Shown here: one piece after another, positions 32,957-39,436 of the stretch
Position numbering within the stretch: position 1 is the stretch's first letter
Layout: every line of letters starts with the position of its first letter
NCBI GenBank assembly: GCA_902764145.1
Contig: CACWUS010000010.1
Coordinates: 1 to 43,246 of the forward strand
Reading direction: 5' to 3'
Length of the DNA: 43,246 bases
From: an uncultured Erysipelotrichaceae bacterium
Lineage (GTDB): Bacteria; Bacillota_I; Bacilli_A; RF39; UBA660
The notes under the pieces: generated by a model
Database searches by the model: none
Seen by the model: only the letters and a program-made list of their open reading frames with translations
Told to the model about the DNA's origin: nothing
Translations under genes and position numbers: made by a program

Positions 32957-33643
32957 ATGAATCTTTCAAGACTTGAAAGCCTAGTAGGAGAAGAAAATAT
33001 ACAAAAAATTAAAAATTTAAAAGTTCTAATTTTAGGATTAGGAGGAGTTGGAGGTTATGCAGTTGAATCAATTGCGAGATGTGGTGTATCTAATATCACT
33101 CTTGTTGATGGTGATACTATTAAACCTAGTAATATTAATAGACAAATAATAGCAACTTCTAGAAACAATAATAAATATAAAACTAAAGAATGGAAAAAAA
33201 GAATTAAGAAGATTAATCCTAATGCAGTTGTTAATATAATAAATACTCATATTACAGAAGATAATATGGAAATATTATTTAGTGATAAATATGATTATTT
33301 AATTGATTGTTGCGATACAAGTAAAGTTAAAATTAAATTAGTAATAGAATGCAATAAAAAAGGAATAAAACTTATTTCTTCAATGGGCATGGCTAACAAA
33401 ATGGATGCTACTAAAATTATGATTAGTTCTCTTGATAAAACTGAGACTGATCCACTTGCTAAAAAAATTAGAAGTGAACTTAAAGGTAAAAACAAGGAAT
33501 TAATGAAAGATGTTACAGTAGTTTATTCAAATGAAAAACCTATCAATAACACAATGCTTGGTTCAACTGCATTTGTACCTGCAGTAGCTGGTCTTTATAT
33601 TACAAATTATATAATTAATGACATAATTAAAAGCACTATTTAG
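32957..33643 (+). CDS. tcdA: tRNA threonylcarbamoyladenosine dehydratase (TcdA, ThiF/E1-like)
   Basis: 228 residues. The adenylation site GLGGVGGYAVE (~30-40), VDGDTIKPSNINRQ and DCCDTSKVK are those of the ThiF/MoeB/E1-like fold, and the segment TDPLAKKIRSELK is typical of TcdA (YgdL/YrvM). It cyclises t6A37 of tRNA to ct6A using ATP. The family usually has ~250 residues. The frame opens at GTG 32948, but AAGGAG is 10 nt before ATG 32957 and almost touches the GTG. Its neighbours 6S RNA and rarA match Bacillus. Confidence 0.9.
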   Translation: MNLSRLESLVGEENIQKIKNLKVLILGLGGVGGYAVESIARCGVSNITLVDGDTIKPSNINRQIIATSRNNNKYKTKEWKKRIKKINPNAVVNIINTHITEDNMEILFSDKYDYLIDCCDTSKVKIKLVIECNKKGIKLISSMGMANKMDATKIMISSLDKTETDPLAKKIRSELKGKNKELMKDVTVVYSNEKPINNTMLGSTAFVPAVAGLYITNYIINDIIKSTI

Positions 33644-33652
33644 TGCTTTTTT
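33629..33652. terminator. Bidirectional terminator tcdA/unknown gene
   Basis: AAAAGCACTA / TAGTGCTTTT separated by TT, then TTGTTTT. Both convergent genes end in it, overlapping by 8 nt. Confidence 0.85.
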
Positions 33653-34286
33653 GTTTTAAATTAAGTGATATATCACCATCTAGTTCATCACTATAATTTT
33701 TTCTAATTAGTTCAACAGTTTCTTTTAATTCCGTTAAAGTCATATCATCTATATCATTAATTGTTATTAGTGGAGCACCTGATATATCTGGTGAATTTGC
33801 ATCACTTTCAAAATATCTTTTAACTATTTCATAATTGATTGTATCTTCATTTTCAATAAAGAATCTATATTTTTCTATTTCATTTATATATTCTTTATAA
33901 TCTTCTTTATCTTTAATGTTTCTACCTAACATTGATATAAAACCTAAACATAATATACTTTGTAATGCTCTACTAAATGGATAATTGCCATTTGCTGCAT
34001 TAAATGATGAATAGAATATAAACCATAAGTTATAAATCATCCACCAATTAGCGCTTTTAATATACTTTCTATATTCATTTATTGCAGCATCGCTCATACT
34101 ACTTAGCACTTGATTTCGCATCTGTACTTCAATAAGTTTTAAAGTACTAGGACTAAATTTTAATTCTTCATGCCTTGCTTTGTTTGCATAATTGACAATA
34201 ATTTTATCATCTTTAATTTCATATCCAGTAATAAAATCATATTTTGCAACTTGATTTAATAATCTTTTTGAATAAAAATATTTCAT
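33636..34286 (-). CDS. Unknown protein with hydrophobic middle
   Basis: 216 residues from ATG 34286, which has GGGGGAAAT upstream; a longer frame to 34319 starts with no such site. Residues ~80-125 hold two hydrophobic stretches (MIYNLWFIFYSSF and ALQSILCLGFISMLG), perhaps membrane helices or a hydrophobic core. The N-terminal third is basic (KARHEELKFSPSTLKLIEVQ). The C-terminus has acidic DDMTLTELKETVELIRKNYSDEL. No family recognised. It is downstream of rarA on the same strand, separated by a terminator. Confidence 0.6.
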   Translation of the reverse strand: MKYFYSKRLLNQVAKYDFITGYEIKDDKIIVNYANKARHEELKFSPSTLKLIEVQMRNQVLSSMSDAAINEYRKYIKSANWWMIYNLWFIFYSSFNAANGNYPFSRALQSILCLGFISMLGRNIKDKEDYKEYINEIEKYRFFIENEDTINYEIVKRYFESDANSPDISGAPLITINDIDDMTLTELKETVELIRKNYSDELDGDISLNLKQKSTK

Positions 34287-34340
34287 ATTTCCCCCATTAG
34301 CAAGTTTATATTGTAACATTTTAAAAAAAATAAATCAATT

Positions 34341-35541: not shown

Positions 35542-35676
35542 TTGTATCACCAACTATATTCTATCAATATTATTAAAAAAATTAAAGATAAATAACTTTA
35601 CTTTATTTCAAAAAAAATATATAATTAATTATAGTGTAACATAGGAAATAAGAATATATAATAGGGAAGTGAGATA

Positions 35677-37530
35677 ATGGATAACAATTTGTTTGCTAGT
35701 GTCGGTTTTTCAACTTATTCATTATTTTTTGCTTTATTTATTTTAATTATGTATTTTAATAAAAAAAGATTTAAAAATATAGAAAACTCATTATTTTTAA
35801 CCCTATTATTATTAGTTATATATATAATTCTTTTAGAATTTGGTTACGTTTATTATTTATATCATGATACCAATTTAAAGGCTGCCTTATTTTTATGTAG
35901 AATGTGGTTAGATGGTATTATTGTTTGGATGTCATTTTTTACTTATTATATTTTAGTTCTTAGAACAAGAAGCATTAAAGATATAAATAGGAAAAAGTCA
36001 ATAAGAAGGAAATTAGCTTATATATTTTTAGGAGTTACACTATTATCTCTTATAGCCGCTAATATACTTCCAATTAAACTATATGATTATACCAATCATA
36101 TATATTCTTTTTCTGGTGATGCTACAAATATAGGGTTTATGACAGCAGCCATTACAATTGGCACAATAATATATGCCTTTGTTTTTAGAAAAGATTTACT
36201 TAATTCTAATCAAAGAAAGCCAGTAATGTTTGCAATAATAGTAATTATAACTATAACAGCAATACAATTAATAAATGACAAATATGATTTAAATTATCAA
36301 AATTTTGAGTTTGTTTTATTACTTATGACTTTATATTTTACTATTGAAAGTCAAGATAACAAGTTACTAGCTGAACATGAAAAAAGTAAAGAAGAAGCTG
36401 AAAAAGCAAATAGGGAACAGACTGAATTTTTAACTAGTATGTCACATGAAATAAGAACACCAATGAGTGTTATTATGGGATATAGTGATGCTATTATTAG
36501 AGAAAAAAATTTAACTAAAGATATAGTTAATAGTGATACTGAAAATATACATACTGCAGCAGTAAATTTATTAGAACTTATTAATAATATTTTAGATTTA
36601 TCTAGAATGGAATCTGGAAAAGAGCAAGTGATTGAAAAAGAGTATGATACTCAGAACCTTTTAGTTGAAATCAATGATTTAGTTTTATCTAAAATTGATA
36701 AAGAAAATATAAGATACAGTATAGTAGTTGATCAAAATTTACCAAAAAAATTACAAGGAGACTACACAAAAGCATCTAGAGTCTTGTCAAACACTATAAT
36801 AAATGTTTTACACTATGTTAAAAAAGGTGGTCTGACATTTAAAGTTGGTCTTACTAAAAGAGATAATTCATTTCTTTTACTAGCTACAGTTGAAAGTGAA
36901 AATAGTGAAATTGATGAAGAAGAATATAACTTATATTACTCAAATGAAAGTAGAGAAGTAAATAAAGTAAATAACGTATTTTTAGGAATGACTGTTGCTA
37001 AAATGTATGCAGAAATGTTACATGGGCGTGTAATAATGACAAACAAGGATAGATATAATATAAGTTATTATATTGAGATTGAACAGAATGTTGTTGATCC
37101 AAATCCTGTTGGTGATATATCTTCATTATTTATAGAAAGTGACGAGAATACTAAAATTAATTTAGAAGGTAAAAATGTATTAGTTGTTGATGATAATATG
37201 CTTAATTTAAAATTAATTAAGAGATTACTTGTTGACTACAACATTAATGTAGAAATGGCTAAAAGTGGATTAGAATGTATTGATAAAGTTAAAGAAGCAA
37301 ATTATGATGCAATATTTTTAGATCATATGATGCCTGGTATGGATGGAATTGAAACACTAAATGAACTTAGAAATATTAAATCAGGGTTACCTCCAATAAT
37401 CGCACTTACAGCAAACTCTTATTCAGGTGTTAAAGATACATATATAAATGCAGGGTTTACAGATTATCTTGCAAAACCAATAAATAAAAATGAATTGAAT
37501 AGATTATTAATTAATATATTTAAAAGTTAG
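35677..37530 (+). CDS. Hybrid histidine kinase with degenerate ATPase domain (pseudokinase)
   Basis: 617 residues. About seven membrane helices in ~10-225, then a short coiled linker (HEKSKEEAEKANREQ). The dimerisation domain keeps the phospho-His (MSHEIRTPM, H257). The ATPase region aligns with the next gene without gaps, but its G1 box DTGFGI reads ENSEI and the G2 box GTGLGL reads NVFLGM; only the N-box Asn survives. ATP binding is therefore unlikely. The C-terminal receiver (~500-617) is intact with DD in VVDDN, D549 (FLDHMMPG), T (ALTAN) and K (LAKP). AAGTGAG precedes the ATG. It lies 13 nt before its paralogue. Confidence 0.88.
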   Translation: MDNNLFASVGFSTYSLFFALFILIMYFNKKRFKNIENSLFLTLLLLVIYIILLEFGYVYYLYHDTNLKAALFLCRMWLDGIIVWMSFFTYYILVLRTRSIKDINRKKSIRRKLAYIFLGVTLLSLIAANILPIKLYDYTNHIYSFSGDATNIGFMTAAITIGTIIYAFVFRKDLLNSNQRKPVMFAIIVIITITAIQLINDKYDLNYQNFEFVLLLMTLYFTIESQDNKLLAEHEKSKEEAEKANREQTEFLTSMSHEIRTPMSVIMGYSDAIIREKNLTKDIVNSDTENIHTAAVNLLELINNILDLSRMESGKEQVIEKEYDTQNLLVEINDLVLSKIDKENIRYSIVVDQNLPKKLQGDYTKASRVLSNTIINVLHYVKKGGLTFKVGLTKRDNSFLLLATVESENSEIDEEEYNLYYSNESREVNKVNNVFLGMTVAKMYAEMLHGRVIMTNKDRYNISYYIEIEQNVVDPNPVGDISSLFIESDENTKINLEGKNVLVVDDNMLNLKLIKRLLVDYNINVEMAKSGLECIDKVKEANYDAIFLDHMMPGMDGIETLNELRNIKSGLPPIIALTANSYSGVKDTYINAGFTDYLAKPINKNELNRLLINIFKS

Positions 37531-37542
37531 AAAGGATAAATT

Positions 37543-39399
37543 ATGTTAGTAAGCGTAATATTTGAAATTTGTTCTCTTATATTTATTATTCTACTTAATA
37601 TTACATATAAAACTAAGAAGTTTAATGTAAAATTATGTAATAGAATATATAATTACCTTATTATTGATCAAATAATGATGCTATTATTTGAGATTTCGTC
37701 TGCTATCATTTTTGGACAAACAAGTAATATTATAATTAATAACATATCACTTAGATTTACATGGATTACAGGTATTATATTTTTCTATCTGTTATATATG
37801 TATTCTTTTACTTTTATTAATGGTGTAAATTATAAAAATATAAAAGATGTTATAAGAAGTTTCATTGAACCAAAGATTTTTACCATATTAACTCTTGTAG
37901 CAACTATCGTATTTTTTGCATTACCATTTAAAGAAATGACTATGGAAACATATACTTATATACCTGGTGCTGCTGCAATTGAAGTAGTAATTTACTCAAG
38001 CTTATCTTGTTTACTTGTAGGAAAGATGCTCATCTATAAAAAAGATATGTCTAAAAGAGAAAAAATGTCAATTTGGTCAGCTTTACTACTTGTACTCTTA
38101 ATAGTACCTTTACAAATAATATATCCAAAAATACTATTTATTGGTATGGGTACTTCACTTCAGTTGTTCTTTGTATATTTCTTAATTGAGAATCCTGATT
38201 TAAGATTAATAGAAGAATTAGATACTTTAAAATATACAATTGATAGAAGCAGTAAAGCAAAATCAGATTTCTTGTCAAATATGTCACATGAAATACGTTC
38301 ACCAATGAATGCAATTATAGGTTTTAGTGAAACAATTTTAAATGATAAAGACTTTGAAAAAGAAAAAGTATTAAATGATATATCACATATTAAATCATCT
38401 AGTAAAAACTTGCTTGATATTATTAATAACATTTTAGATATTTCTAAAATTGAAACAGGTAGTGATACTCTTGAAGAAAAAGAATATTCGCTTGCTAGTC
38501 ATATTATAGACTGGAGTGGTATTGTAGAAACTAGACTTGAAAATAAAAATATTAAATTTTTGTTAGATGTAGATAAAACAATTCCTGTAAAACTTTATGG
38601 TGATGCTACTAAAGTGTTCCAAGTTGTGTTAAATGTTCTAACTAATGCAGTTAAATATACTGAAGTAGGTAGAATAAGAATGGTTATTGCTAAAGAAGAA
38701 ATAAATAGTAGGGAGATTAAATTAAAATTTAAAGTTTCGGACACAGGTTTTGGTATTAAAAAAGAAGATTATGATAAAGTGTTTCAAAAATTCTCTAGAT
38801 TAGATTCTGCTACTACTAATGAGATTGAAGGTACAGGCCTTGGATTAGTTCTTACAAAGAAGTATGCTCAATTAATGGGAGGAGATATTTGGTTTGAAAG
38901 TGAATATGGTGCTGGAACTACTTTCTATTTTGAAATTCCTCAAAAAATTGTTGATCCTACACCAATGGGAGATATAACCGAAAAAATAGAAGATGACTCT
39001 AATAAAGTATTAATTAATTGTGCAGGTTTAAAAGCACTAATTGTTGATGATGATGAATTAAATTTAAAAGTTACTAAAAGACTTCTTGGTGCATATAATT
39101 TTGATATAGAAGTTTTATCTAATCCAGAAGAATGTATTTATAAATTTAAAAATGGTGAGCATTATGATATTATTTTCTTAGATCATATAATGCCAAAAGT
39201 TAATGGAGTAGAACTAATGAAAACTTTAAAGGGTCTTAAAGGTTATCATGTTCCACCTATAATAATGCTAACTGCTAATGCAATAGCAGGAGTTAAAGAA
39301 ATGTATTTAAAAGAAGGATTTGATGATTACATTTCTAAACCAATAGACATTAATGAACTTGATAAAGTAATAAATAAATTCTTTGTTGTAAAGAAATAA
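37543..39399 (+). CDS. Hybrid histidine kinase, intact
   Basis: 618 residues with the same plan as the upstream gene: about seven membrane helices to ~225, dimerisation domain with H249 (MSHEIRSPMN), complete ATPase domain (N box NVLTNAVKYT, G1 VSDTGFGI, G2 EGTGLGL), and a C-terminal receiver with D547 (FLDHIMPK) and conserved T and K. The sensor helices differ from those of its neighbour. No separate DNA-binding response regulator is nearby, so the phosphate target is unknown; the two receivers may themselves be phosphate carriers. AAAGGA precedes the ATG. A terminator follows. Confidence 0.93.
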   Translation: MLVSVIFEICSLIFIILLNITYKTKKFNVKLCNRIYNYLIIDQIMMLLFEISSAIIFGQTSNIIINNISLRFTWITGIIFFYLLYMYSFTFINGVNYKNIKDVIRSFIEPKIFTILTLVATIVFFALPFKEMTMETYTYIPGAAAIEVVIYSSLSCLLVGKMLIYKKDMSKREKMSIWSALLLVLLIVPLQIIYPKILFIGMGTSLQLFFVYFLIENPDLRLIEELDTLKYTIDRSSKAKSDFLSNMSHEIRSPMNAIIGFSETILNDKDFEKEKVLNDISHIKSSSKNLLDIINNILDISKIETGSDTLEEKEYSLASHIIDWSGIVETRLENKNIKFLLDVDKTIPVKLYGDATKVFQVVLNVLTNAVKYTEVGRIRMVIAKEEINSREIKLKFKVSDTGFGIKKEDYDKVFQKFSRLDSATTNEIEGTGLGLVLTKKYAQLMGGDIWFESEYGAGTTFYFEIPQKIVDPTPMGDITEKIEDDSNKVLINCAGLKALIVDDDELNLKVTKRLLGAYNFDIEVLSNPEECIYKFKNGEHYDIIFLDHIMPKVNGVELMKTLKGLKGYHVPPIIMLTANAIAGVKEMYLKEGFDDYISKPIDINELDKVINKFFVVKK

Positions 39400-39400
39400 T

Positions 39401-39436
39401 AAGACAATAGTATGTAAAACTGTTGTCTTTTATTAT
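39401..39436 (+). terminator. Terminator after kinase pair
   Basis: Stem AAGACAATAG / CTGTTGTCTT (10 bp, one G-T) with a 9-nt loop and a T-rich tail. Confidence 0.8.

Follow-up and report, generated by a model that had tools for sequence, protein, structure and literature searches.

Two adjacent genes, HK1 and HK2, were analysed in a 43,246-nt stretch of DNA from an uncultured Erysipelotrichaceae bacterium (GenBank assembly GCA_902764145.1, contig CACWUS010000010.1); this whole stretch is called the window below. The two proteins probably constitute the subunits of a membrane hybrid histidine kinase, a heterodimer in which HK2 would phosphorylate H257 of HK1 in trans and the phosphoryl group would then pass to a receiver and to a histidine phosphotransfer (HPt) protein. 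On balance, we also favour the view that a tandem duplication followed by reciprocal loss has turned a natural lineage of membrane hybrid kinases into an obligate heterodimer, with all stages kept in living relatives. The ATPase of the first subunit (A) would have decayed first and the phospho-acceptor His of the second (B) afterwards, and a two-sensor integrator would have emerged from this ratchet-like complementary decay. The features of the two genes are listed below, with their basis in brackets.

35677..37530, plus strand: HK1 (A subunit), hybrid histidine kinase with degenerate ATPase, 617 aa (open reading frame (ORF), alignment, Pfam)
35677..36342, plus strand: HK1 sensor, seven predicted transmembrane (TM) helices, beta hairpin between helices 4 and 5 (AlphaFold2)
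36418..36618, plus strand: HK1 HisKA, motif HEIRT; codon of phospho-acceptor H257 at 36445-36447 (Pfam, alignment)
36679..37092, plus strand: HK1 pseudo-ATPase domain, lid 4 residues shorter (alignment, Pfam score below the cut-off, AlphaFold2)
36895-36912, plus strand: HK1 remnant of the G1 box, SENSEI (alignment)
36973-36990, plus strand: HK1 remnant of the G2 box, NVFLGM (alignment)
37177..37503, plus strand: HK1 receiver; D549 codon at 37321-37323 (Pfam)
37543..39399, plus strand: HK2 (B subunit), complete hybrid histidine kinase, 618 aa (ORF, alignment, Pfam)
37543..38190, plus strand: HK2 sensor, seven predicted TM helices, diverged copy of the HK1 sensor (AlphaFold2, alignment)
38257..38460, plus strand: HK2 HisKA, motif HEIRS (Ser at H+4); H249 codon at 38287-38289 (Pfam)
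38599..38946, plus strand: HK2 ATPase domain; G1 box DTGFGI at 38740-38757, G2 box GTGLGL at 38830-38847 (Pfam, alignment)
39037..39372, plus strand: HK2 receiver; D547 codon at 39181-39183 (Pfam)

The two genes lie on one strand with a spacing of 12 nt, and both start codons are preceded by purine-rich stretches. An earlier note, made from the window's sequence alone, had claimed that the proteins align in one register through the ATPase domain, and the alignment indeed runs in a single register end to end (32% identity). Both have the domain order 7TM-HisKA-HATPase-REC. The HisKA domains were scored by Pfam at 59.1 bits in HK1 and 60.3 bits in HK2 (cut-off 26.9), with H257 and H249 as the acceptors, and the receiver (REC) domains at 92.7 and 80.3 bits, with D549 and D547 as the conserved Asp. 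The HATPase_c score was 16.3 bits in HK1, under the cut-off of 26.4, and 93.4 bits in HK2. The N, G1, F and G2 boxes are all intact in HK2, which has a functional-looking HATPase_c domain. The G1, F and G2 boxes are lost in HK1, where SENSEI stands for DTGFGI and NVFLGM for GTGLGL and the F-box/ATP-lid segment is 4 residues shorter than that of HK2, a change that the earlier note had passed over. The N-box N376 is retained, and the alignment also showed retention of H257, D505/D506, D549, T578 and K600. The destroyed glycine boxes and the kept acceptor His and receiver Asp are thus as the earlier note had read them, and so are the two seven-helix sensors. The AlphaFold2 model of HK1 (pLDDT 84; sensor mostly 77-95) begins with seven helices, followed by a DHp hairpin, a pseudo-ATPase domain that is folded, and a REC domain; the model of HK2 resembles it and likewise begins with seven helices. 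No credible Pfam family was found for the sensor in any of the 36 aligned proteins.

Kinases were gathered from fetched loci (219 ORFs, 187 after removal of near-duplicates), which gave 31 non-redundant A-B pairs and 118 unpaired kinases from Bacilli metagenome-assembled genomes (MAGs), the pairs coming from few genera. The family is widespread in these MAGs, mostly as single genes, as was seen when relatives and named GTDB genomes were searched. The first genes (A) and the second genes (B) form separate groups, and the gaps within pairs range from -29 to +23 nt. The trees of A and B mirror each other (Mantel r 0.90 between their distances, reached in none of 2000 permutations), and therefore the pair seems to have been inherited as a unit; the window type reads as an ancient tandem pair. 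Extra pairs added later match the same pattern. One locus (L045 5836-12547, G008:C8) has the order A-B-A followed by a fourth kinase cut by the contig end, and represents a duplicated split-kinase pair.

The ATPase boxes of A are lost in 29 of the 31 pairs, by a single event on the tree. Among these 29, the His of A is kept in 28, the REC Asp in each of the 27 whose REC domain has not been lost, and the G1 Asp and all G-box glycines of B in every one. Orthologues at 79, 57 and 46% identity to HK1 have the same loss and keep H and D, which supports the earlier note's suggestion that phosphotransfer was maintained and ATP binding lost. Since none of the 118 unpaired relatives lacks the His or the G1 box, and the orthologues share the loss, the pattern of HK1 is not due to chance. 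Moreover, in 9 of the 29 pairs B has Y, V, S or K in place of its His, always with intact ATPase boxes. This compares with 0 of 122 other kinases (Fisher p = 1e-7), although the p value overstates the independence of rows that share ancestry, and the tree counts are a fairer measure. The tree calls for three losses of the His: two in B (a clade of eight rows, and L168, where Lys stands in its place) and one in A (L087). The A partner keeps its His wherever B has lost it, and B keeps its own in L087. In no pair is the His or the ATPase missing from both members; one or both copies of each are always left.

Intact G boxes, which the earlier note had named as the counter-evidence to look for, occur in the pairs L077, L078 and L079, of which two are non-redundant; both kinases of these pairs are intact. 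These pairs were dismissed as a refutation, for they branch outside the dead-ATPase group; by their position they are taken to mark the ancestral state. The other outcome named there was a loss of H257 and D549 as well; the acceptor His was found to be lost in only 1 of 29 A proteins, that of L087. The series would accordingly read from intact/intact pairs to dead-ATPase/intact pairs, as in the window, and on to dead-ATPase/His-less pairs, the true split kinases.

A pair of the last kind is present in the same genome as the window (G000:C1:88936-92674; L031 4901-8684). Its A protein is ATPase-dead (SHEIRTP and SNTGHAM), and its B protein has no His (TYEIKVP, SDTGTGIK and EGSGLGL). Judged from these motifs, such a pair could autophosphorylate only across two proteins, by the ATPase of B acting on the His of A. 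Because B is without a His and A without an ATPase, a functional dimer would have to contain both proteins and act in trans. This sister pair and eight other non-redundant pairs are split kinases in the strict definition. The window pair is not, as HK2 is complete (H249 and G boxes) and only HK1 is incomplete; on its motifs, trans-phosphorylation of HK1 is thus not forced there. We infer the same geometry for HK1 and HK2 because of their common descent with the pairs of the G000:C1 type. The earlier note's idea of a heterodimer phosphorylated by its partner gains support from the nine pairs whose B proteins would depend on a His other than their own.

In the proposed mechanism, HK2 would bind ATP and carry out the kinase reaction, its ATPase domain phosphorylating H257 of HK1 across the dimer. 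HK1 would be the phospho-acceptor and phosphotransfer subunit, and probably the phosphatase subunit as well, since its HExxT motif is retained. The phosphoryl group would then move to a receiver Asp (D549 or D547) and from there to HPt proteins, in this genome likely two HPt-REC proteins encoded on other contigs. As each subunit has its own seven-helix sensor, the output might integrate both.

The residue four positions after the His (H+4) also differs between the subunits. Phosphatase-competent HisKA kinases carry the motif HE/DxxN/T, with Thr or Asn at H+4 (PMC3591291). Thr was found at this position in nearly all A proteins (27 of 29) and single kinases (115 of 118). Of the 20 B proteins with a His, however, 17 have Ser there, HK2 included, versus 3 of 118 singletons. 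The Ser was probably introduced by one ancestral change, and it suggests that the B protein's own His site may already be altered in role where it is still present.

HK1 is not a decaying gene, since its dN/dS ratio is low, its predicted fold is intact and its pattern is common to orthologous pairs. In comparison with the 79% identical G007 orthologue, dN/dS is 0.144 for HK1 overall, 0.077 for its HisKA domain and 0.138 for its pseudo-ATPase domain, and 0.118 for HK2, all rough figures because changes at synonymous sites approach saturation. In G007, G001 and G008, the orthologues show this damage to the boxes too, with H and D retained. G007 also conserves the order of the neighbouring genes, rarA - HK1 - HK2 - xerD - deoB; in G001, the order rarA - HK1 - HK2 is kept as far as the contig end, which comes after HK2. 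A pseudogene or a sequencing error was therefore ruled out by the open reading frame, the dN/dS value and the loss common to orthologues. A viral or mobile origin was also rejected: the viral_contigs scan gave one partial match, and synteny of the locus extends to G007 and, in part, to G001.

No response regulator adjoins HK1 and HK2 in the window. The earlier note had said as much, and for the window it is correct; operons of other genera, however, also encode an HPt protein and a response regulator with a REC domain. Most related kinases, pairs included, have an HPt or HPt-REC gene beside them or fused to their own; in most unpaired relatives, the small HPt or HPt-REC protein is encoded directly downstream or is fused to the C-terminus. 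In the loci of the intact pairs, an HPt gene and a REC response regulator of 522-535 aa follow downstream, and pairs of the L076/L162 type have the same genes just upstream. The regulator has a receiver that retains its Asp, and an HD-GYP-like domain (Pfam HD_5) in which most metal-binding residues are missing; the catalytic metal ligands are mostly replaced, HD by YD and HH by YH. Such pseudo-HD-GYP regulators were seen in or beside kinase operons at L162 2465-4090, L078 8921-10528, L076 7145-8752 and 17 other places. In the genome of the window, no full-length REC/HD-GYP-like regulator was found. The best matches to it there are two HPt-REC proteins, one of 274 aa (G000:C9; L037 2638-3462) and one of 373 aa with a proline/glutamine-rich linker (G000:C6; L038 2491-3612). 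For this reason they are the likely next phosphorelay step, and likely partners of the orphan hybrid kinases. Spo0A, which is present in this genome and in nearly all genomes of the genus, was considered as a possible final target. It was not adopted because G007 and G015 gave no match though they carry pairs; both are incomplete MAGs.

Several observations weigh against the heterodimer as described. HK2 keeps both H249 and its ATPase, so that HK2 could signal as a homodimer without HK1, whose part might then be no more than that of a modulator. The A protein of L087 70-3746 (G015:C8) is the only one lacking both His and ATPase, with its receiver intact. The A proteins of L168 127-3586 and L171 4430-7857 have no receiver domain, so the acceptor role is not universal. 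All the sequences are derived from MAGs, and the agreement of the A and B trees, which linkage of the genes alone would lead one to expect, is not in itself a sign of contact.

The first of these points leads to an alternative that we regard as unlikely, namely that HK1 is a non-catalytic modulator. It would bind HK2 or its partners and switch HK2, as RetS acts on GacS or DivL acts in the CckA pathway, with H257 kept for structural or historical reasons. The completeness of HK2, the exceptional A proteins and the structural look-up in the PDB are consistent with this. The Foldseek matches of HK1 included RetS and DivL; kinase domains made up the list of matches, which barely tested the sensor. 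A modulator of this kind would not, however, be expected to hold its His and its receiver Asp so consistently through the decay of the ATPase, and in the nine sister pairs with a His-less partner the His of A is the only one in the complex. A homodimer of HK1 might instead serve as a dedicated phosphatase or phosphate sink on HPt proteins or receivers through its HExxT motif, without being phosphorylated by HK2. The distribution of Thr in A and Ser in B at H+4 agrees with this, and phosphatase activity on the acceptor side is known for CheA3 (PMC3591291). We find it more doubtful still, because it explains neither how a His-less B would signal nor why the His of B was lost only beside an A with a dead ATPase. 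It is very improbable that HK1 has an atypical mode of binding ATP or some other nucleotide, or that it is a decaying pseudogene. The retained N376 and the predicted folding of the domain might point to unusual binding, but all orthologues have lost or altered the G1 Asp, the G1/G2 glycines and the lid, and the HATPase_c score of HK1 is below the cut-off; a pseudogene would not agree with an open frame under purifying selection.

Two short elements flank the genes.

35597..35625, plus strand: promoter-like TTTACT-17-TATAAT, 5' of HK1 (consensus match only)
39401..39429, plus strand: terminator-like stem-loop directly 3' of HK2 (1 found, 0.5 expected)

The promoter candidate is weak evidence, such matches being frequent in this AT-rich stretch; the terminator-like stem-loop closes the two-gene unit. 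A gene at 33636-34319 of the window encodes a protein of 227 aa without a Pfam family and adjoins rarA also in G007 and G001. The G000:C1 pair is located between an rsmA/ksgA-like gene and yabG, in a neighbourhood of sporulation genes. Separate hybrid kinases with a shortened F-box/lid and an altered G2 box were also found (L085 6550-8742, L118 8841-10823, L123 6851-9025 and L125 4894-6939); they are located near an intact kinase and an HPt gene, and are perhaps another case of decay.

If the heterodimer is correct, the pairs in living genomes would represent a stepwise change, in a fixed order, from a homodimeric to an obligate two-subunit receptor. The mutual dependence of paralogous kinases would become directly testable with a handful of genes, and the pair would offer a natural design for joining two different membrane sensors to one phosphate signal. 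Counts of kinases based on domains would then overstate the number of independent kinases in these gut Bacilli.

Histidine kinases are usually regarded as homodimers; there are few natural heterodimers, most of them with a regulatory role. The best NCBIfam scores of HK1 and HK2 are to families of the BarA/ArcB/TorS type, far under the equivalog cut-offs. These hybrids share the order HisKA-HATPase-REC with the pair; each is, however, one complete protein that acts as a homodimer with another sensor, usually with the HPt domain in the same chain. RetS and DivL are also degenerate kinases and are allosteric partners of other kinases, the likeness of HK1 to them being that of structural matches only; we know of no reciprocal loss in a tandem partner of this type. 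In the open-access literature on split, pseudokinase and heterodimeric histidine kinases, CheA3/CheA4, Hik36-Hik43 and ChrS were found, and no hybrid pair with reciprocal loss. Split kinases as such are known, and full-length membrane hybrid kinases that divide their functions by reciprocal motif loss are apparently unreported. In Corynebacterium glutamicum, the native paralogous kinases ChrS and HrrS heterodimerise, and a ChrS pseudokinase arose by a laboratory-evolved frameshift, the His of ChrS being dispensable (PMC9491836). This also combines an ATPase-dead kinase with a live paralogue, but it is not a natural conserved pair. Hik36-Hik43 of Synechocystis is a split CheA whose interaction was detected by two-hybrid assay (PMC7656254). 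The kinase function is likewise divided over two genes; however, these are non-adjacent and encode a CheA with a separate HPt part, not a hybrid HisKA kinase. A SMART survey found 711 of 42,417 HisKA proteins to be possibly split and bifunctional (PMC3591291). In CheA3/CheA4 of Rhodobacter sphaeroides, the acceptor His and the ATPase are on two proteins, as proposed for HK1/HK2, and the ATPase partner phosphorylates the other in trans (PMC3591291, PMC6829392); the acceptor subunit is also a phosphatase (PMC3591291). HK1 and HK2 do not belong to the CheA family, as the Pfam scan found HisKA and none of the CheA domains (P1 HPt, dimerisation, CheW-like). CheA3/CheA4 are soluble and were split by the loss of whole domains, whereas HK1/HK2 are full-length 7TM HisKA hybrids that came from a tandem duplication and diverged by the decay of single motifs.

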